Below, piece after piece: positions 2,672 to 57,957 of a stretch of DNA of 64,000 bases (the stretch's first letter is position 1; each line of letters opens with the position of its first letter). The notes under the pieces were generated by a model that had not been told where the DNA came from, ran no database searches, and saw nothing but the letters and a program-made list of their open reading frames with translations. A program made the translations under genes and the position numbers. This stretch comes from an uncultured Verrucomicrobia subdivision 3 bacterium (GTDB lineage Bacteria > Verrucomicrobiota > Verrucomicrobiia > Limisphaerales > UBA11358), in the NCBI GenBank assembly GCA_903850425.1, contig CAINLR010000178.1, positions 1 through 64,000 on the forward strand, read 5' to 3'.

Positions 2672-3652
2672 ATGAACGGCAAATCCGAAAAGCAACATAA
2701 TCCGCAAACGGCGGCAGAACCGCCACCCTCGGCGGACGCTGACTTTTACTTGGAACAAATTGGCGAGGCGTCGAAAAGAAGCCGCCTGGTTTTCTATCTG
2801 CTCCTGGTTTCAACCGCATTGATTTTTTCCTATCATTGGAAAATGCGCGACGGCGGGTGGCTTGATCATCGCATCCAATTGCGACATGAAATGATAAAGT
2901 ATTGGAATGGTTTGGGAGCGGGGACAAATACAACGGTGACAAATGCGATGGGACTCCTCGATTCTGGTAAATGGGAGCGGCTAACCAATACAGTCACATT
3001 GCTTCATCGCCAGGCCAGTAATTCAAATGACCTGGCGGTGTTGCAAACTGAGTTGAATGACTTGCGGAAAGAATGGGGCAGCGGCTTCAAAGTTCCATTC
3101 ATCGAGGCCATTTTTGATCCCAATGATTTCGTCCTCTTGAGCATTCTGGAGCTGCTGGTGTTGTCATTTGTTTTCCTGCACTGTTTGATTCGCGAGGAGG
3201 ATAACTTGAAAATTTCTTTTGCCGCGTTCGGTTTCGGCGCAGAAAGCGCCCACGTTGACAAGCGCAAGCTCGCTGAGTTGGGCAAATTTTGCAAAAAGGC
3301 CCGGATGCAGCAGGTTTGGCTGGTGGCAGACCGCGAACCAACAGACTGTTGGCCACCGCTGTTGCAAAAGGGATTGTGGTTGGTGTTTTTTGCGCCTTTG
3401 GCGGTCCAGTGGTGGGTTTTTCTTGAAGCCAGTTGGGATTGGAAGGCGGGGCATTTTTTCCCAGATGAGTGGCGCGTGGTTGCGCCGGTGTTTGGCATAG
3501 TAATCATGGTCATAGAATTTATTTTATTGGTTCTGCTGTCCCTGCTCACGGTGAGATCAGCGAAGATTTTTTCTGAAATGAACCAGCTTTGGGCTGAAGT
3601 CCATGTCCAAGTATCCGACGAACACCCAAAAAATATTGAAAGCAAATTATGA
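2672..3652 (+). CDS. hypothetical integral membrane protein (four predicted helices)
   Basis: 326 residues from the ATG at 2672. A TTG at 2633 would add 13 residues and is less likely. Four hydrophobic segments are visible: around residues 40-58 (FYLLLVSTALIFSY), about 155-178 (LLSILELLVLSFVFLHCLI), about 240-260 (LWLVFFAPLAVQWWVFL) and about 275-302 (VFGIVIMVIEFILLVLLSLL). A polar region of about 90 residues lies between helices 1 and 2, and a short soluble part between helices 2 and 3. The stop overlaps the next start by ATGA, so the two genes are probably translationally coupled. I do not recognise the family. Confidence 0.75.
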   Translation: MNGKSEKQHNPQTAAEPPPSADADFYLEQIGEASKRSRLVFYLLLVSTALIFSYHWKMRDGGWLDHRIQLRHEMIKYWNGLGAGTNTTVTNAMGLLDSGKWERLTNTVTLLHRQASNSNDLAVLQTELNDLRKEWGSGFKVPFIEAIFDPNDFVLLSILELLVLSFVFLHCLIREEDNLKISFAAFGFGAESAHVDKRKLAELGKFCKKARMQQVWLVADREPTDCWPPLLQKGLWLVFFAPLAVQWWVFLEASWDWKAGHFFPDEWRVVAPVFGIVIMVIEFILLVLLSLLTVRSAKIFSEMNQLWAEVHVQVSDEHPKNIESKL

Positions 3653-4761
3653 AAGGCAAATTCCTTTGTGTCCTGAGTGTTTTGCTATGCGGGCTTTTTT
3701 CAGCACAAGCGAGTTGGTGGGTGCGGGTTTCGCCGGGTGCCGCCGGTCATTTGGGCTTTTCCAGCCAAGGCCCGTTTGCCACGCAAGCGGCTGCTCAAGC
3801 CTGGGTCAATGCCAATTGCCCCAACATCTCCGGTGTGAGCATCTCCGGCAGTAATGACGTTCCGGCCCAGAACAATCCTCAAAATAATAACCAAGCCGCC
3901 GCCGCTGCCGCCGAGAAAAAGGCGCAGGAGGAAGCCGCCCGCCGGCAAGCCGAAGCCCAGGCTGCCGCTGATAAAGCCGCCCGCGACGCAGAACAAGCCC
4001 GGCTATTTGAAAAAGCCAAGGCCGCCGCGTTGGGCGAGTTGAAGGGGCTGGATTTTGACAGTTCCGGCCGTGGCTCCGCCTTGAAAGGTTTGAACGACAC
4101 GCCCCCGCGCAAGGGAACCGCCGTCACGCCCAATCTCGGCTTGAGGGATGCGCTCAATGACAACGGTTCTCAATTGAAGTCGCTGGACGCGCAGCCGGCA
4201 CCGTTTGTCATCACCGATGCCATGGTGGTGGATGCGCGGAATGTTCCCACGGGGCTGCCCAAGTTCGTCCAAGATTCCATTCCCCACACCCCAGCGGGCG
4301 ACCGGGTGCGCAAGGGATTCCAGGCGGTGCTGAATCATGATTGGCCGGTGGCGCTGGCCTGGTTTCAGGATGCGCTGAATAAAAAACCGGGAGATGCCGG
4401 ACTGGAACGGCTGGTGGATTTGGCGCGCTTCACGCTGAATTACCGGAATCATCCGCCCGCGCCTGCCGCTCTCGCGTCACCCGCCCCGCCAGCCGCCGCG
4501 TTGCAACCGTTGCCCGTGCCGGCCGGGTTGGAGGTGGCTTTGAAGGAAAAGTTGAACGAGGATTTGGCCAAAGCCATGGACGACTACAATGAACATCGCC
4601 TATCTCTGCCACCAAATCCGAACGAGCATATCATGACCGATGAGGAGTTTTTCAAGATGGAAGATCCGGCGTGGATACAGTTTTGCCGCTACGTCACCTA
4701 CCTGCTGCCCCAGCCTTCGCGCCCGCCGCCGAGAGCTACGATCGGTGGCATACGGGGTTGA
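3649..4761 (+). CDS. exported Ala-rich coiled-coil protein with TPR-like segment
   Basis: 370 residues. It starts within the stop of the membrane-protein gene (ATGA overlap). The signal peptide is residues 1-22 (cleavage near AQAS). A short globular part (SWWVRVSPGAAGHLGF) follows, then a long Ala/Glu/Lys/Gln helix at about 85-130 predicted to be a coiled coil, then a stretch with a repeat-like helix pair (GFQAVLNHDWPVALAWFQDALNKKPGDAGL, here read as two pieces) typical of a single TPR. The C-terminus is Pro/Ala-rich and ends in a basic tail. It is the last gene of the rightward 5' cluster and is followed by the 21-bp repeat array. No catalytic motif is seen. A periplasmic structural or adaptor role is only a guess. 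Confidence 0.72.
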   Translation: MKGKFLCVLSVLLCGLFSAQASWWVRVSPGAAGHLGFSSQGPFATQAAAQAWVNANCPNISGVSISGSNDVPAQNNPQNNNQAAAAAAEKKAQEEAARRQAEAQAAADKAARDAEQARLFEKAKAAALGELKGLDFDSSGRGSALKGLNDTPPRKGTAVTPNLGLRDALNDNGSQLKSLDAQPAPFVITDAMVVDARNVPTGLPKFVQDSIPHTPAGDRVRKGFQAVLNHDWPVALAWFQDALNKKPGDAGLERLVDLARFTLNYRNHPPAPAALASPAPPAAALQPLPVPAGLEVALKEKLNEDLAKAMDDYNEHRLSLPPNPNEHIMTDEEFFKMEDPAWIQFCRYVTYLLPQPSRPPPRATIGGIRG

Positions 4762-4861
4762 AAGCTTCGAGGAGGTGGTGGCGGCTGTCGTTTTTTGATC
4801 TTCTGCTAGGATCACAACCGAGAAAACTCGACTATTTGGAGTTTTTCAGGGGTTTTCGGGC

Positions 4862-5197
4862 TTCCCGGCCAATTTGACGCTGTTCCCGTGTCGTCCGACA
4901 CGCTTCCCGTCCAAGCTGGCACCGTTCCCGGTCAAAATTACCGGTGTCCCCGTTCCGCCATCGGCGTTCCCGCCTCGTCCGACGCTCTTCCCGATCGGTC
5001 CGTCATGCTTCCCGGGTCGGTCGACGGTGTTCCCGCCGGGGCCGGTGCCTTGCCCGCCCGGTCCGACGGCGTTCCCGGTCGAATTTGCAGGCATCCCGGT
5101 TCCGCCAGCGCGGTTCCCGCATCGTCCGTCACCGTTCCCGGCCGGTCCGAGAGTGGTCCCGGGGAATGGAGTTGTTTTCCCGCCGTCATCCGCACGG
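4862..5197. repeat. degenerate tandem array, 16 units of 21 bp
   Basis: Sixteen consecutive 21-bp units fill the gap between two convergent genes (4762-5202). Unit starts fall at 4862, 4883, 4904, 4925 and so on with no slip to 5177. Most units begin TTCCCG and continue with a CGGTCCGAC-like core; units 4 and 8 have good TTCCCGG starts, and units 5, 10, 12 and 15 are mutated at the first bases. Because 21 is a multiple of three, several frames on both strands stay open, giving heptad-like Pro- or Gly-rich translations that I regard as artefacts. The 100 bp before the array (4762-4861) shows no gene. Confidence 0.9.
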
Positions 5198-5202
5198 CTC
5201 CC

Positions 5203-6003
5203 TCAAAGGCCGCCGAAGATGCGGTGGAAATTTTCCTCGACCCGCGCGGCCAGCGACGTCAGCGGTGCGCCCCGCAACTCGGCCAGGCCGGCATACACGG
5301 CGGGGAGGTTGGCCGGATGGTTCAGCGGTTGGCCCGTGATGGTCTCGGTGAGCGGATGCAGGCATTTCTCCGGCGGCAGGAGTTGATCCGGCGCGTCGGT
5401 CTCAATGAGCAACCGGTCGGCGGGAACTTGCCTGAATGTTTCGCGCTGACGCAGTTTGCGCTCATGTAAAAAGTAGCCGGGAAAACTGAAATACGCGCCG
5501 AGTTTGGTGAATGCGGGAATCATTTCCGCCGGGCCACCGAAACTGTGCAGCACGAAGCCGCGCGTCGGCCGCGGATGATCCCGCAGCAATTCATGCAATC
5601 GTCCCCACGCCTGCAAGCAGTGGATGCTCACGGGCAGATTGCGCTCGGTGGCGAGGCGTAGTTGCGCGAGAAAAACCTCCTCCTGGCCAGCGTAACTCAA
5701 ACCCGGTTTCCAGCGGTCGAGACCGATTTCGCCGACGGCGCTGGGAACCGCGTCGAGGAATTTCTCCAGGTTGCCGAGCCAGCCGGCCGTGCGTTCGCGC
5801 AGATACCACGGATGACAACCAAAGCTCGGCAGCACAATTGAATTCGTTCGGGCAAGCGCGAGGACTCGCGGCCAGTCGGCTTCGCCTGTGCCGTTGACGA
5901 CCATGCGGGCGATGCCGGTTTCTTCGCACGCGGCGAGCAATTCACTTTGGCGGCCGGCAAAACGGTCGCCTTGCAAATGATTGTGAGCGTCAAAAAATTT
6001 CAC
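5203..6003 (-). CDS. tatD: TatD-family metal-dependent hydrolase
   Basis: 266 residues, the usual length for TatD. Motifs of the family are present in order: DAHNH at residues 5-9 (metal-binding His7 and His9), GCHPW, GEIGLD (metal-bridging Glu), SIHC, LHSF and TDAPD near the C-terminus (catalytic Asp). TatD proteins are TIM-barrel amidohydrolase-like enzymes with DNase activity reported for several members; the cytoplasmic role in nucleic-acid turnover or repair is known from family members, not shown here. It is the last gene of a leftward run lysA-FIST-hypothetical-sufE-tatD. Its 3' end abuts the 21-bp repeat array. Confidence 0.93.
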   Translation of the reverse strand: MKFFDAHNHLQGDRFAGRQSELLAACEETGIARMVVNGTGEADWPRVLALARTNSIVLPSFGCHPWYLRERTAGWLGNLEKFLDAVPSAVGEIGLDRWKPGLSYAGQEEVFLAQLRLATERNLPVSIHCLQAWGRLHELLRDHPRPTRGFVLHSFGGPAEMIPAFTKLGAYFSFPGYFLHERKLRQRETFRQVPADRLLIETDAPDQLLPPEKCLHPLTETITGQPLNHPANLPAVYAGLAELRGAPLTSLAARVEENFHRIFGGL

Positions 6004-13894: not shown

Positions 13895-14146
13895 TGGTGA
13901 GATTAAGCCGTTTTGGCGCCGCGTTTGGCAAAGCAATTTTCACCGGCATTCCATCGGCTATTGGGGCCAGCACGAAAATGTCGCCACCCGCTGGCGGCAC
14001 AACCGCACCGGGTTTAAACCGCCTCGCGGGGCGTTGCCGCCGCCGGACGCTGTCCTTGTTTTTGGCTCGAACCGGCGGGCGTCTGCCAAAACCGGCAATA
14101 ATTACCCACCGGCGGCGAATTTTGCTTAAAACGGCTCAAATCAACG

Positions 14147-14430
14147 GCTAAAGGCAGCGCCGGAGCTTGTCGAAGCCACCTATGGAAATCCACAGTGACC
14201 TCCGAAAGCGTTCGAAGGCACCTGTGGAAAGTCAGTAGGGCCTTCGCACGCGTTGGAAGCGTCCTGGGAAAATCCACAACGACCTCCGAAGTCTTTCGAA
14301 GGCACCTGTGGAAATATACAGTGACCTTCGCAAGCGTTGGAAGGCACCCAGCAAAATCCACTACGACCTCCCAACGCGTTGGCGGGCACCTGGGAAAATC
14401 CACAGCCGCTGGCGGAAGCGTTCGGCCCAG
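14147..14430. repeat. tandem array of about six 42-bp hairpin-forming units
   Basis: The same position in the core GGAAAATCCAC recurs at 14189, about 14232, 14273, 14315, 14357 and 14399, a 42-bp period. Each unit contains two inverted repeats: TGTGGAAATCCACA-type and CCTTCG...CGTTCGAAGG-type (half-sites vary). Adjacent units differ at several bases, so this is an old array. It sits in a 750-bp gap (13895-14644) between two leftward genes. The rest of that gap shows no gene; a 12-bp palindrome GTATCGCGATAC is at about 14468-14479. Confidence 0.85.
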
Positions 14431-55900: not shown

Positions 55901-57957
55901 ACAATTCGTGGGCGCTGTTCAACCAGCATCTCACCGCGACGAATTCCTTCACCGTCACGGTCACGAATGTGCCGACGGCGACGAATGCCGCGAACATCTC
56001 GCCGCTCAGCATCGTCAGCACGACCATCGGCGGCATCAACGGCTATCTGGTGAGCTGGTTCGCGCCGACGAATTACCAGTTCCACCTGCAATGGACGCCG
56101 GCGTTGCTGCCGATGAACTGGGCCAACTTCAACGGCGTGCTCAGTTTCATTGCGCCCAATTCGCCGACCAATGTTTTGTTCCAATACTTTGACGACGGCT
56201 CGCAAACCGGTGGCTTCGGTCCCGCGCGTTTCTACCGGCTGCTGCTGCTGGATTCACCCACGAACACCGCACCGTTTTTCCTGACCAATCCGGGCACGCT
56301 CCCGGCCAGTGTGGACGTGCAATTTACTTATCCCGACGCGGCCAAAGATTGGGACGTGCCGTCACAAGCTTTGACTTACCTCATCTCGAACAGTTTGGCC
56401 GGCCCCAATCTCGCCGTCATCATCAACACCGGCACCATCTACTGGACGCCCGACGCGTCGCAGGCGGGAATGACCAACGAATTGACGATCACCGTGGTTG
56501 ACAACGGCGTGCCGGCGAAGCACGCGACCCATGTGGTCAAGGTGGTGGTGGCCGCCGTTGCGACGCCGTTCGCGAGCGCGCTGCCCGCCAAATCGGTGAC
56601 GGGCACCGCGGCCCTGCTGAATGGTTTTGTCAGTCCCAACGGCACGAACAACTGCACCGCCTGGTTCGAATACGGGGCCAGCCGTTATTATGGCAGCACC
56701 ACCGCGCTGGTGAACGTCGGTGGTAGCAGTGGCGTCGTGTATCTCACCGCGCCCGTCGCGGGTCTGATCAATGGTCAGAACTACCACTACCGGCTCGTCG
56801 TGAGCAACAGCGTCGTCACCACGCGGAGCTTTGACCGTCAATTCGGCGTGGGCCATCTCTTGGATTGGGGCACCGATATTTATCACAACCAGTTTGGCAA
56901 CACCGGAGTGCCCGCCGGCCTGGGCAATGTTGCGGCGATGGACATCGGCTATGCTTCGAGTCTGGCCTTGATGCCCGATGGCACGATCGACGCGTGGGGC
57001 ATCAACTTCACTCACCTGCTCGAAGTTCCGGCCGGCTTGAACAACGCCGTGGCGCTGGCCATCGGGCGCGGGGATCACGGGGCCGGGTGTCTGGCGTTGA
57101 AGGCGGATGGCACGGTCGCCGTGTGGGGTGATAATTCTCTCAACGAGCTCTACCTGCCGGCCGGATTGAATAACGTGGTGGCCGTGTCGGCCGGGAATTT
57201 GCACAGCCTGGCGTTGAAGGCCGACGGCACCGTCGTCGCGTGGGGCGCCAGCAACATTCTTGCCTCGATTGCCGTGCCCGCCGGCCTGAGCAACGTCGTG
57301 GCGATTGCCGCCGGCGATGGTCACAACCTTGCGTTGAAAAACGACGGCACCGTCGTCGCCTGGGGCTCTGATTCAATTGGCCAAACCGAAGTGCCAGCCA
57401 GCTTGAGCAACGTCGTGGCCGTGGCTGCGGGCGGTTACAGCATTGCGTTGAAGGCCGACGGCACCGTGGTCGCGTGGGGCACGAACTATAATAACACCCT
57501 GAACACCGCGCCCGCCAGCTTGAACAACGTCGTCCAGGTCGCCTGCGGTGATTTCCACGGCCTCGCCTTGAAAGCCGACGGCTCCATCGTCGCGTGGGGC
57601 GACGACGCCTATGGCGAGCTTGATATGCCCGCCGGCGTCAGCAATGTCGTGGCCGTGGCGGCTGGTCGCTACAAGAACCTGGCCCAGATGTCGGCCAATC
57701 CCTTGAATGCCACCAACCCGCCGGCCGCCACCTTCAGCATCGGTAGCGTCAGCGCCACCGGCACCAACGGCCTCACATTGCAATGGACGGCCCCGGTCTA
57801 TGCCGCGTTCCAAGTGCGCTGGGCCACCAACCTCGTGCCGCCGATGACGTGGAATCTGGTCCCCGACGTGCTGACCTCCACCAACGGCAGCTTCCACTTC
57901 ACCGACACTAATCCGCCGTTATTGATGAAATTCTACGAACTGCTTCTGTTGCCTTAG
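46954..57957 (+). CDS. giant multidomain subtilisin-family (S8) protease with LamG, cadherin-like and RCC1 modules
   Basis: 3667 residues. An N-terminal hydrophobic segment (about 5-23) anchors or exports it. The peptidase S8 triad is complete: Asp301 in VEVNDTGIDVNHP, His341 in SGHGTHVAGI, Ser718 in GTSIAAPSVSG; a long insertion separates His and Ser. P-domain-like sandwiches lie at about 1220-1300 and 1400-1620, a LamG domain at about 1728-1943 (MSIDFWMF, WHHIAGVYDG), about ten cadherin/He_PIG-like repeats at about 2080-3005 plus one near 3110-3210 (DPDIPTNTLTF, ITWTPDE..GP), and RCC1-type repeats at about 3300-3580 (LALKADGTVVAWG). It ends with the W..RWATNL...FYELLLLP module. Thr-Asn dipeptides are extremely frequent. 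Likely a cell-surface or secreted protease of the adjacent machinery. Confidence 0.88.
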   Translation: MQRRIWILTVACLLAVGGAWLFWPHAPGVAVSASVAPAARLVHPGAAPIQFALSAATTNAHSAVVKTNPFAYRLSNTTKTVGELTVAPHAILLENALIDTAANRALDLPAHLRATAEPGAYIVQARGLVDGPFRAVLAGAGAQIVSYIPNNAYLVKLSAGGAAGLSANALVQAVLPFAPYFKLQPSLLGLAVEQKPLPSGQVLTLGLFSEGAAATVAQLEKMGGKIVATDRSPFGPIVRVQPPADWIAMVQLPGVQRVEPTRRREVANDMSRTTIGVSADTVTNVTYLGLSGSNVLVEVNDTGIDVNHPDFTTGGNPTTAGAAPIRVIGDSTNSLWDVSGHGTHVAGIIAGNGSKSINPTNVGAAARGSLTNADFRGKAPLANLFSVGFSGANDNTYVSDAYLQETPARTNALISNNSWVNGGGNVYDLSAASYDAATRDAVPGQTGPQPVLFVFAAGNNGGGADNGGGGSSDTVLSPGTAKNVITVGSLEQFRNITNTYQPLGSTNETLVWDGETSSGSQVAAYSSRGNVGVQTEGDYGRFKPDVVAPGTFVVSTRSTTWDKVAYYNRTNYHNEFSSYDLYVDTNTLAYGGANVPINAVSVRIQAVPNSHSPTPFPILPLYISSTTVPDPTDGTTYDFVSSNNVISIPPDNGGTITDIGSLLNGGFVCAVADGTNIPVNFDLRIQVVTTNDYGNLLEVLSNLNETLGPYYYYETGTSIAAPSVSGTLALMQDFFTNTLHTTPSPALLKAMLINGARLSTGYNEYMVTNSINYEGWGLVNLPNSIPSALTNTTVSVSNGVPMFFLDQSPTNVLATGDSRTYNVSVPTPAARNQMMRITLAWTDPPGNPAAGVKLVNNLDLVVTNLATGAVYYGNNLTAATTPFSVVVNSNTSPDSVNNVENVFLPVPLGTNYAVTVIGRNVTVNAVTLEQTNIVQDYALVISCGDSANTNGITVTPAVANVPGPGQPITYVGNTNSIYYNQVSGANAPWLSTNTSLFGTNSPYFTNASLSIGQTNQWHFFIVTNTTPWTNAAFIVFLPNTLAIPRLGVFAGTDANATRPEADLDMFVTSPLTDPNAGGLTNLNPVTISNCVQGVLGDATALNRGGTEFVVYSNSTLGQVYYIGVQAEDQMAAQFAFLPIFSQEPFSRADANGNQIVTGLLLPAEIPDGNNAHPGRALVMGLATMPMQVGGLTVSNAITHQNFGDLLGVLTHGTRGSAVLNNHDGLPNPVIDYTTVYNDDGLPNTRHTDGPGSLRAFRGQEAIGPWILSEIDDSMTQTGAVTGLTFIIRPHRDLRKGLITVSVPAGSWFYDYVDVPVGYTNITVVATNLPPTSVPPIVLALQFNTEPTISNNIAIVGLTNGTPPGNLISDGPPLAPGRYFVGVFNPDTIDHDVVLGAFLTFDPSAITRLNFKSAAPVPLLDDAVTYDYMYVTNTAPIQEFNVGLRVDHQRISDLAFHLISPDGSRFLLMENRGGQSTNGCGLTIITTNIIDVPANGGAAAQTNYIDTGMVSGTLPITYNFYTAPDEMTVYYGTNIAPENLILDTGFTNNPSLGGGAQNTQPETLLVTFPPPTATVSSTILTIIMNQFGNPNTNTAWWYRAGGVLTNFEYLTFTEDTNQTMTPIKFAATPLVPLTITNFVIQTNITFLTNSITLVSNSFEAPVVAGNYLAGSSADNWLVVSNQVSVIRDLTNVNAGAQFLALASGTISRSLPTQAGATNILRFAYRGPGALGLWRGENNPADSVGPNDGVLTNGAGFFHGQVNQSFSFNGAGQFVHVPAFTNLNAIGNQMSIDFWMFANASNSMNTIQGLVDTDHYGIEISPGFSARIGVNFYVDTTSGSALISSVNGGGIVVTSNAWHHIAGVYDGTKIQLYIDGLPAGSSAAASGNLQPMLATSYLSIGSDDGRTYCGCGGRYFNGLIDEATLYKRALSFAEIQAIYNAGILGKYDQAAAFPQNLAKLNLALSGVSTNLLFGSNTNWQTNTISFVATTNSTALQISGLQPGMLLDSFALTSFAAVTNYVTNMVVTVSNLYYLPEQSIDSLISTSPQGWWQLEVLDNRAGATNNATLLSWQLGFTFANTNHIAPPVLPTVTNYTIIETTLLTVTNTATDALTNLTLSYSLSGPTNAVISTNGIITWTPTEEQGPSTNIFVTTVSDNSNPVNKSQNFFSVIVLESNLPPVLEFPTNTTVFRILETALFITNALASDPDIPTNTLTFALVSATDQSGQAVTGLTVTSDGTIQWTPDETNGPSTNVIWISVTDTNPPAVNQTSFSVTNSFTIIVLESNLPPVVFPPSNTNIDELVPWSALATATDPDIPTNTLTFSLVDVVPPLVGAQLTVSPAGVIDWTPDEFQGPGDYTVSIRVTDFNPWAVNQQSLSATNSFTIHVNEVNVAPVWHTPTNYFVLLPAVFMATNAATDTDYPVNPLTYVLLSGPTNAAMIDPTNGIVSWPSTNGMAGSNYLFVVAVTDTNAPAVNPKTYTVTNQFWVTVIATNHAPRWTNSIGNFTLDELTTTNIFVTAIDTDTPPNLLTYKLLNAPVGMTVTNSGPNALITWTPSEAQGPGVYSNILVVVSDNVFPNALTATNLPFTVTVNEINLAPYWLTNNPGATNFVMDELTTLTVTNTANDDDIPTNLLTYTLTVTNLSGGAWPVTNVDLSTNGIITWTPDESQGPGTYLFTTIVTDTNPPAVNAKSLSATNQFTVTVNEVNTPPVWNFDDNSAFYIIRPNVFVLTNAASDADIPTNVLTYALVSGPTNSAIDPNTGVITWPSAGSAIGQTYNFVAVVTDTNPPAAVPSYSVTNNFSVTVVASNSPPYWPAPVPDQTWNEMATNIITVTALDTDLPPNHLTYSLRNAPTGMTIRTVGANGVIRWVPSEVQGPGFYPNILVVVSDNVFPSPALVTNAPFSVTVNEVNRAPRFLGTPANRSVATGTTLVIANPATDPDFPVNPLTYSLLNPPSGADVDRNSGLLTLTLDAGVNVITTVVTDYNSWALFNQHLTATNSFTVTVTNVPTATNAANISPLSIVSTTIGGINGYLVSWFAPTNYQFHLQWTPALLPMNWANFNGVLSFIAPNSPTNVLFQYFDDGSQTGGFGPARFYRLLLLDSPTNTAPFFLTNPGTLPASVDVQFTYPDAAKDWDVPSQALTYLISNSLAGPNLAVIINTGTIYWTPDASQAGMTNELTITVVDNGVPAKHATHVVKVVVAAVATPFASALPAKSVTGTAALLNGFVSPNGTNNCTAWFEYGASRYYGSTTALVNVGGSSGVVYLTAPVAGLINGQNYHYRLVVSNSVVTTRSFDRQFGVGHLLDWGTDIYHNQFGNTGVPAGLGNVAAMDIGYASSLALMPDGTIDAWGINFTHLLEVPAGLNNAVALAIGRGDHGAGCLALKADGTVAVWGDNSLNELYLPAGLNNVVAVSAGNLHSLALKADGTVVAWGASNILASIAVPAGLSNVVAIAAGDGHNLALKNDGTVVAWGSDSIGQTEVPASLSNVVAVAAGGYSIALKADGTVVAWGTNYNNTLNTAPASLNNVVQVACGDFHGLALKADGSIVAWGDDAYGELDMPAGVSNVVAVAAGRYKNLAQMSANPLNATNPPAATFSIGSVSATGTNGLTLQWTAPVYAAFQVRWATNLVPPMTWNLVPDVLTSTNGSFHFTDTNPPLLMKFYELLLLP

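Follow-up and report, generated by a model that had tools for sequence, protein, structure and literature searches.

The window, that is the whole stretch of 64,000 nt analysed here (contig CAINLR010000178.1, from an uncultured Verrucomicrobia subdivision 3 bacterium), carries a non-coding array of 21-bp tandem units in the gap between two genes. The two genes are convergent, as an earlier reading of this DNA from its letters and ORFs (the sequence-only reading) had described. The array starts 100 bp past the upstream ORF and ends 5 bp short of the stop codon of a TatD gene. The features of this locus, and a second array in the same window, are as follows.

3649–4761, plus strand: ORF upstream of the array, convergent, with no Pfam match
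4791–4861, no strand assigned: leader of A/T tracts, their centres lying 68, 37, 17.5 and 7 bp ahead of the array
4862–5197, no strand assigned: 21-bp array, 16 units, consensus TTCCCGGCCCGTCCGACGCGG, non-coding
4925–4987, plus strand: units 4–6 of the array, a three-unit block that recurs as units 11–13 (16 of 21 identities per unit pair)
5072–5134, plus strand: units 11–13, the second copy of this block, seven units later (16 of 21 identities each)
5203–6003, minus strand: gene for a TatD-related DNase, convergent, downstream of the array (PF01026, E 1.1e-57)
14166–14420, no strand assigned: second array, period 42 bp (two 21-bp halves), with a minus-strand gene on either side

Elsewhere in the window (57172–57480) there are repeats of about 120 bp, which we take to resemble RCC1-type propeller repeats.

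The 16 units follow one another head to tail without a single insertion or deletion, so that the strict 21-bp register claimed earlier holds throughout, and the array falls within the 10–60 bp unit range of minisatellites. Its self-match at a lag of 21 is 0.508, whereas segments of 336 bp from the rest of the window have a mean of 0.289 and a maximum of 0.413; the highest value among 20,000 shuffles was 0.403. The heavy base divergence noticed earlier is equally clear, as 120 of the 336 bases deviate from the consensus. Most of the conservation of the unit sits in the first six columns (TTCCCG), which carry 1.1 to 2.0 bits each, making the unit starts strongly conserved, as proposed. The proposed CGGTCCGA core is conserved to some degree, but its columns reach only about 0.2 to 1.1 bits. 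The array is a mix of several unit types, and unit triples comparable to the recurring block were seen by eye in a congener (G026, contigs C85 and C203).

A repeat of 21 bp, divisible by three, could encode heptapeptides or be the remnant of such a gene, and three of the six frames are open throughout the window array. The 3-bp harmonic expected of coding DNA is absent from the arrays, the mean power share of 27 arrays being 0.075, compared with 0.383 in a set of seven presumed coding repeats. Codon statistics give no gene call for the window array, three array ORFs have no Pfam match, and arrays of relatives contain one-base indels and stops (by eye), leaving the heptapeptide reading with next to no credence. 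The sequence-only reading had asked whether the array might be coding in relatives; the arrays there lack the 3-bp coding signal.

Readings at the level of RNA fare little better. Neither strand of the window array folds better than its shuffles (z +1.13 and +0.41), and the array has no Rfam match. A bidirectional transcription terminator between convergent genes, which was part of the earlier interpretation, would suit the convergent gap that the window array occupies, and in one congener (G017) the leader of the array has a hairpin followed by T residues (by eye). Terminator-like sites are not above shuffles, with one such site in 4600–5400 against 1.0 expected, and this site lies beside the array and not inside it. 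RNA folding shows no excess, half of the genus arrays lie in tandem gaps and one is in a divergent gap, so a terminator appears very unlikely. A Rho-type rut site was also considered for the plus strand of the window array (130 C against 98 G), and was dropped as other arrays are G-rich when read from the upstream gene (by eye).

The minus strand of TTCCCG reads CGGGAA, and an RNA from this strand would present GGA in nearly every unit, as a sponge that titrates CsrA in the manner of CsrB-type RNAs. Few genomes of the phylum sample have CsrA (5 of 59, including the source), and it is encoded by G000, G025 and G026, all of which carry window-like arrays. It is missing from G010 (81% complete), which has a window-like array, and from G017, G019 and G009, which have other arrays. 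Most units of two arrays (L066 and L116) lack GGA (by eye), and the minus strand of the window array folds like its shuffles (z +0.41). A CsrA sponge is accordingly rated as highly improbable, below even the terminator. Within the genus, CsrA is patchy (15 of 49 genomes).

Palindromic units in G017 and G019 (by eye) suggested arrays of hairpins maintained by compensatory change, a candidate that was dropped as a general explanation. Column permutation gave p < 0.05 for palindromy in 10 of 25 array blocks, and also in three of six control repeats, and using the true complement did not raise the covariation score above that from two false ones. The hairpin reading may hold for single arrays, such as L116 (z 5.1). 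REP and BIME elements are short dispersed intergenic repeats with a proposed role in DNA topology, and REPs are palindromes of conserved sequence. The arrays resemble them as short repeated intergenic elements dispersed in the genome, but the window array has no conserved palindrome and no excess of palindromy (p = 0.72). It also lacks CRISPR architecture, its 21-bp units being contiguous and without spacers. Comparison of 10 neighbouring proteins with PADLOC for cas and defence genes gave a single match, the TatD protein (QatD, E 1.6e-22), and a TatD homologue by itself does not make a defence system.

The convergent setting of the window array is not general. Among 10 genus arrays with both neighbours called, five lie between convergent genes, five between tandem genes and none between divergent genes, with divergent gaps making up 12% of intergenic bases and two gene callers in conflict at L052, L079 and L114. 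The lone array of a later congener sample lies between divergent genes, and one array at L086, from another family of the order, is in a gap called divergent. The suggestion that arrays always sit between convergent genes therefore fails. A conserved array position behind TatD was likewise examined and rejected: in 20 TatD loci, taken from 31 congeners with a TatD match, no adjoining non-coding array was called at lag thresholds of 0.46–0.5. Two arrays were found about 2 kb from TatD in these loci, behind another gene.

A search of related genomes for the 21-mer, as the sequence-only reading had advised, located homologous arrays in three congeners (G025, G026 and G010), and the strict pattern of three TTCCCG motifs at 21 bp occurred in 8 of 146 genomes, including the source genome and five congeners. 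The window array matches that of G025 at 73% over 206 bases, while its homology to the G010 array covers 38 bases only. Of these three congeners, the two in which TatD was found (G026 and G010) have the TatD gene and the window-like arrays on separate contigs, which points to a dispersed array family and not a fixed locus. Nor is the array unique in kind, another possibility raised earlier, since homologues occur elsewhere and the same genomes hold other 21-bp arrays. Arrays of other sequence are present in the source genome on contigs C99, C3, C7, C6 and C17 and at 14166–14420 of the window, and also in G019, G009, G017 and G026. The second window array shows periods of 21, 42, 84 and 126 bp, and its units (GAAGGCACCTGTGGAAA... 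and CAGTGACCTCCGAAAGCG...) are unrelated to those at 4862–5197.

Arrays with different unit sequences within one genome are what would be expected of neutral minisatellites, in which a lineage-specific process duplicates non-coding DNA in 21-bp steps, drift and homogenisation follow, and phase and curvature are by-products. Slippage or template switching would perhaps be easiest after two helical turns. Three further observations favour such a process, which accounts well for the sequence turnover. One gene is trailed by an array in both G019 and G009 with unrelated units, and in a third congener about 10 bp separate this gene from the next. Several arrays contain runs of identical, young-looking units. 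Arrays were also few in a fresh sample of 20 further congeners (270.6 kb), where the lag caller gave one 21-bp locus, two 14-bp hits and one 45-bp hit, and Tandem Repeats Finder gave no rows. The replication tests set in advance for this sample were underpowered with a single array locus. Its result neither supports nor contradicts the phase claim, and arrays are rare in many congeners.

Unit lengths other than 21 bp occur in a few places. At L117 (5960–6231) there is a heptamer array (7/14 bp), and heptamer arrays were also among the hexamer hits in the genus described below; as 21 is three times seven, a link between heptamers and 21-mers may be conceived. The 7-bp harmonic of A/T content has p = 0.02 in all 27 arrays and 0.31 in the 16 arrays that were found without a sequence pattern. 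L086, from another family of the order (G053), has arrays of 41/42 bp at 1481–1800 and 13908–14339, the second with T/A tracts about ten bases apart.

The tandem arrays of the genus are mostly of 21 bp, a preference not seen in the other orders sampled. Within 181.6 kb of non-coding sequence (of 1.05 Mb) from genus genomes picked in part for having arrays, Tandem Repeats Finder returned nine rows with a period of 21 bp, seven of 42 bp and one each of 63 and 84 bp, among which rows of one array can overlap, against eight at other periods (two of 7 bp, one of 14 bp, two of 20 bp, two of 22 bp and one of 41 bp). Because this sample was not random, triples of a hexamer with both gaps free from 7 to 27 were run over 49 genus genomes, and equal-gap hits were counted by hand per contig. 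With three hexamers, 23 contigs had a spacing of 21, seven a spacing of 14 and four other spacings. TTCCCG was spaced at 21 on 16 contigs and at 14 on two, with single contigs at 20 (mixed with 21), 18, 24 (from 12-mers) and 16 (from 8-mers). For the two arbitrary hexamers, ACCTGA gave 21 on two contigs and 14 on two, and CAGTTG gave 21 on five and heptamers (14) on three. The 23 contigs fall in eight genomes (G000, G010, G014, G017, G019, G025, G026 and G028), and most of the 49 have no contig with a hexamer spaced at 21. Spacings of 13, 15, 17, 19, 22, 23 and 25–33 were absent among the equal-gap hits of the genus.

CAGTTG behaved differently in 145 genomes of the phylum (the source and 144 from outside its order), with equal-gap spacings of 15, 22, 23, 24, 27 and 33. 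The spacing of 22 came from 11-mers on five contigs of one genome, plus one other, and 21 was found twice, both times built of heptamers. In 400 kb of control DNA from other orders, no 21-bp row appeared and the single 42-bp hit was weak. So sharp a period in the genus weighs against neutral expansion, as free slippage predicts a spread of periods, yet many spacings are absent and 16 and 24 are seen only as 8-mers and 12-mers. The window array, with no indels beside 120 differences from its consensus, points the same way.

The 21-bp preference is shared by some genomes of Bacteroidota and Bacillota. Seven named genomes, preselected because they carry TTCCCG arrays with 21-bp spacing, were rescanned with free gaps, and among the matches listed (Perspicuibacillus, Filobacillus and three Bacteroidota MAGs) the TTCCCG spacings were nearly all 21, the exceptions being one Filobacillus locus with a spacing of 20 and a small number of unevenly spaced triples. 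CAGTTG was spaced at 21 on all seven equal-gap contigs of four Bacteroidota genomes, one of them perhaps coding, and gave no equal-gap hits in Perspicuibacillus, Filobacillus or Geminisphaera. Perspicuibacillus lycopersici (NZ_JAOUSF010000002.1; L163 and L202) has many 21-bp arrays beginning TTCCCGAAAA in about 130 kb of one contig. In Filobacillus milosensis (NZ_SOPW01000006.1, 3255–3695; L164), a 21-bp array (TTCCCGTGAGCGCAACAATTA) adjoins a strong hairpin; judging by the ORF list, the gap appears to be convergent.

In G017, several loci (L036, L037 and L038, on C5, C6 and C19; by eye) combine a leader of roughly 100 bp, containing a hairpin and a T run, with a 21-bp array after it, and next to these are short palindromic repeats of the form CTCCGTnAGGAGCG (by eye). 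Leader and array repeated together would be consistent with a dedicated factor, transposase-like or architectural and with a relaxed sequence requirement, that recognises, makes or spreads 21-bp arrays and is common to the lineages that have them. Further points in its favour are the array genomes in distant phyla, with the period in Bacteroidota again 21 for a second hexamer, and the homologues of the window array on contigs without TatD in G026 and G010. Against it, the distant genomes had been preselected for TTCCCG arrays, and no candidate gene emerged, the neighbours of the arrays looking unrelated on reading through the ORF listings. Such a factor is considered unlikely. The protein-binding array of the sequence-only reading found no direct support, and it is made harder by the absence of any sequence common to the arrays.

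What the arrays do have in common is a signal at half the unit length. In the 16 pattern-free arrays, predicted roll has 0.122 of its power at 10.5 bp (the second harmonic), against 0.052 expected from random non-coding 21-mers (p = 0.0004), and the purine/pyrimidine share is 0.200 against 0.099 (p = 0.0001). Both excesses remain at p <= 0.013 when any one of seven single arrays is left out, and also without three blocks from other families, that is, in the genus only. No significant 10.5-bp excess was found in this set for T (p = 0.10) or A/T content (p = 0.14), and nothing stands out in the first or third harmonic of roll. The roll values are dinucleotide averages and curvature here is predicted curvature; some arrays are homologous, which makes the tests not fully independent. 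Coordinates of some array blocks were placed by eye, and the 27-array set used for curvature and flank tests excludes G121, whose array is cut by a contig end.

A second set comprised 24 arrays of other lineages, remaining from 81 pattern-selected arrays after 57 were removed for a covering ORF of at least 300 aa, heptamer substructure, fewer than six units or more than four open frames. Under a null that holds TTCCCG fixed, the excess is p = 0.0017 each for purine/pyrimidine and T, and p = 0.009 for roll. Three Perspicuibacillus arrays have the highest 10.5-bp roll shares of the 24 (0.39 to 0.51), and without them the roll excess vanishes (0.100 against 0.093, p = 0.34), with purine/pyrimidine at p = 0.031 and T at p = 0.013.

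Measured over 104-bp stretches, the roll periodicity of 15 of 26 arrays exceeds the 95th percentile of non-coding DNA, and that of the window array is at the 97.1 percentile. Against nulls that keep the period, 11 of 27 arrays fall below 0.05 and 16 do not. The window array alone is not significant, either by column permutation of roll (p = 0.088) or in harmonic share (roll p = 0.25, purine/pyrimidine p = 0.23). The roll signal is absent from L066, L079 and L116, and the second window array (14166–14420) has a 10.5-bp roll amplitude with p = 0.005. As many arrays, including the one studied here, stay below significance, the 10.5-bp signal is a property of the class and not of every member. Its absence from many single arrays agrees with neutral expansion, for which the class-wide harmonic, like the sharp period, needs an added assumption. 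The selection on phase put forward in the sequence-only reading is thus upheld for the class, by the 21-bp preference and the 10.5-bp harmonic, but not for the window array taken alone, and the slippage relic that it named as the alternative stays plausible; the earlier interpretation as a whole stands in part, with its protein-binding and terminator readings not borne out.

The DNA beside the arrays is also phased, in part. In the leader of the window array, the A/T tracts are mostly in helical phase, with a mean cosine of 0.8 over the pairs of four tracts only. Across the class, the 150 bp next to an array contain runs of at least four A or T at intervals of about 10, 20–21, 30 and 40–42 bp, so that the array flanks have A-tracts phased at about 10.5 bp. 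For both flanks, the mean cosine at 10.5 bp is 0.46 against a null of 0.05 ± 0.07 (0 of 2000 randomisations), and it is 0.33 in the pattern-free set (p = 0.0055). Gaps that lack arrays, whether tandem, divergent or convergent, give values near zero. The phasing is mostly on the 5′ side (0.56) compared with the 3′ side (0.24, p = 0.066), the side being arbitrary for pattern-free arrays. Beyond 42 bp from the arrays it is weak (0.19, p = 0.076), so part of the flank signal may come from decayed units. In other lineages, the 5′ phasing (0.26) is hardly above a background that is itself already phased (0.20).

A literature search, mostly at the level of titles, returned no description of such arrays. 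Several known systems are comparable in part. In the excerpts available of PMC3940949 and PMC4060949 (with Tolstorukov and Bolshoy cited there), A-tract clusters and curved intergenic DNA have helically phased A/T tracts and predicted curvature, and a role in nucleoid compaction and supercoiling is proposed. The likeness lies in these two traits; the arrays differ in carrying their phase in a fixed 21-bp tandem unit that is often GC-rich, and only the leader consists of A/T tracts. Strong gyrase sites, according to the same kind of excerpt (PMC6379681), have arms with a periodicity of about 10.75 bp over 130 bp, are degenerate in sequence and show enrichment on the downstream side of highly transcribed operons. 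Their arms flank a cleavage centre, whereas the arrays are uniform, longer and repetitive, and are comparable in the 10.5-bp periodicity of the class only. Intrinsic curvature over about 70 bp is described as pinning plectonemes (PMC6301789).

Among tandem repeats, those of Borgs are likewise fast-evolving, independently formed and in many cases intergenic (PMC9879509). In the excerpted text of that paper, 14% to 38% of intergenic unit lengths are multiples of three, about half of the repeats are coding, and no fixed 21-bp unit is reported. Bacterial minisatellites (VNTRs) and heptamer direct repeats, as outlined in parts of PMC4679880 and PMC4692102, are also short, non-coding tandem repeats, and 7-bp arrays like the latter occur in this genus too. 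As far as these accounts go, the arrays stand apart from minisatellites by their 21-bp unit, a register kept despite heavy divergence, and the 10.5-bp signature of the class.

Taken together, these observations lead us to propose, at a probability of about 0.37, that the window array belongs to a class of sequence-tolerant, curved-DNA elements that grow in steps of two helical turns. The trait preserved would be the spacing of 21 bp, two turns of the helix, and not the sequence. Each unit would present the same bend on one face of the DNA, and 16 units would build a long curved segment; we infer both that this curvature is real and that it is selected. Its role may be topological, either pinning plectonemes or offering gyrase or a nucleoid protein a surface for wrapping, in many cases downstream of genes. 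A site behind genes, where positive supercoils accumulate, would suit plectoneme pinning and gyrase alike. Tandem duplication would supply new units, and any duplicated stretch of a length other than two turns would disturb the phase and be lost. Neutral expansion in 21-bp steps is about as likely as this curved-DNA element. The wider proposal, that scattered lineages of several phyla hold intergenic arrays with a unit of exactly two helical turns and free sequence, acting as supercoil anchors through a shared factor or through selection that reads geometry, is decidedly doubtful, if somewhat less so than a dedicated array-making factor.

Should the period be maintained for the sake of helical phase, the arrays would be natural, repeated modules of curved DNA with internal sequence replicates, and would allow one to ask whether bacteria encode the position of supercoils, or the loading of topoisomerases, in the shape of their DNA. 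Such a shape-encoded system, if true, would conserve the length of a unit without conserving its sequence. If the arrays are neutral, they would reveal a mutational process with a sharp step of two helical turns, itself unexpected. Either way, the preference of this lineage for 21 bp is a testable regularity that is invisible to searches by sequence similarity.
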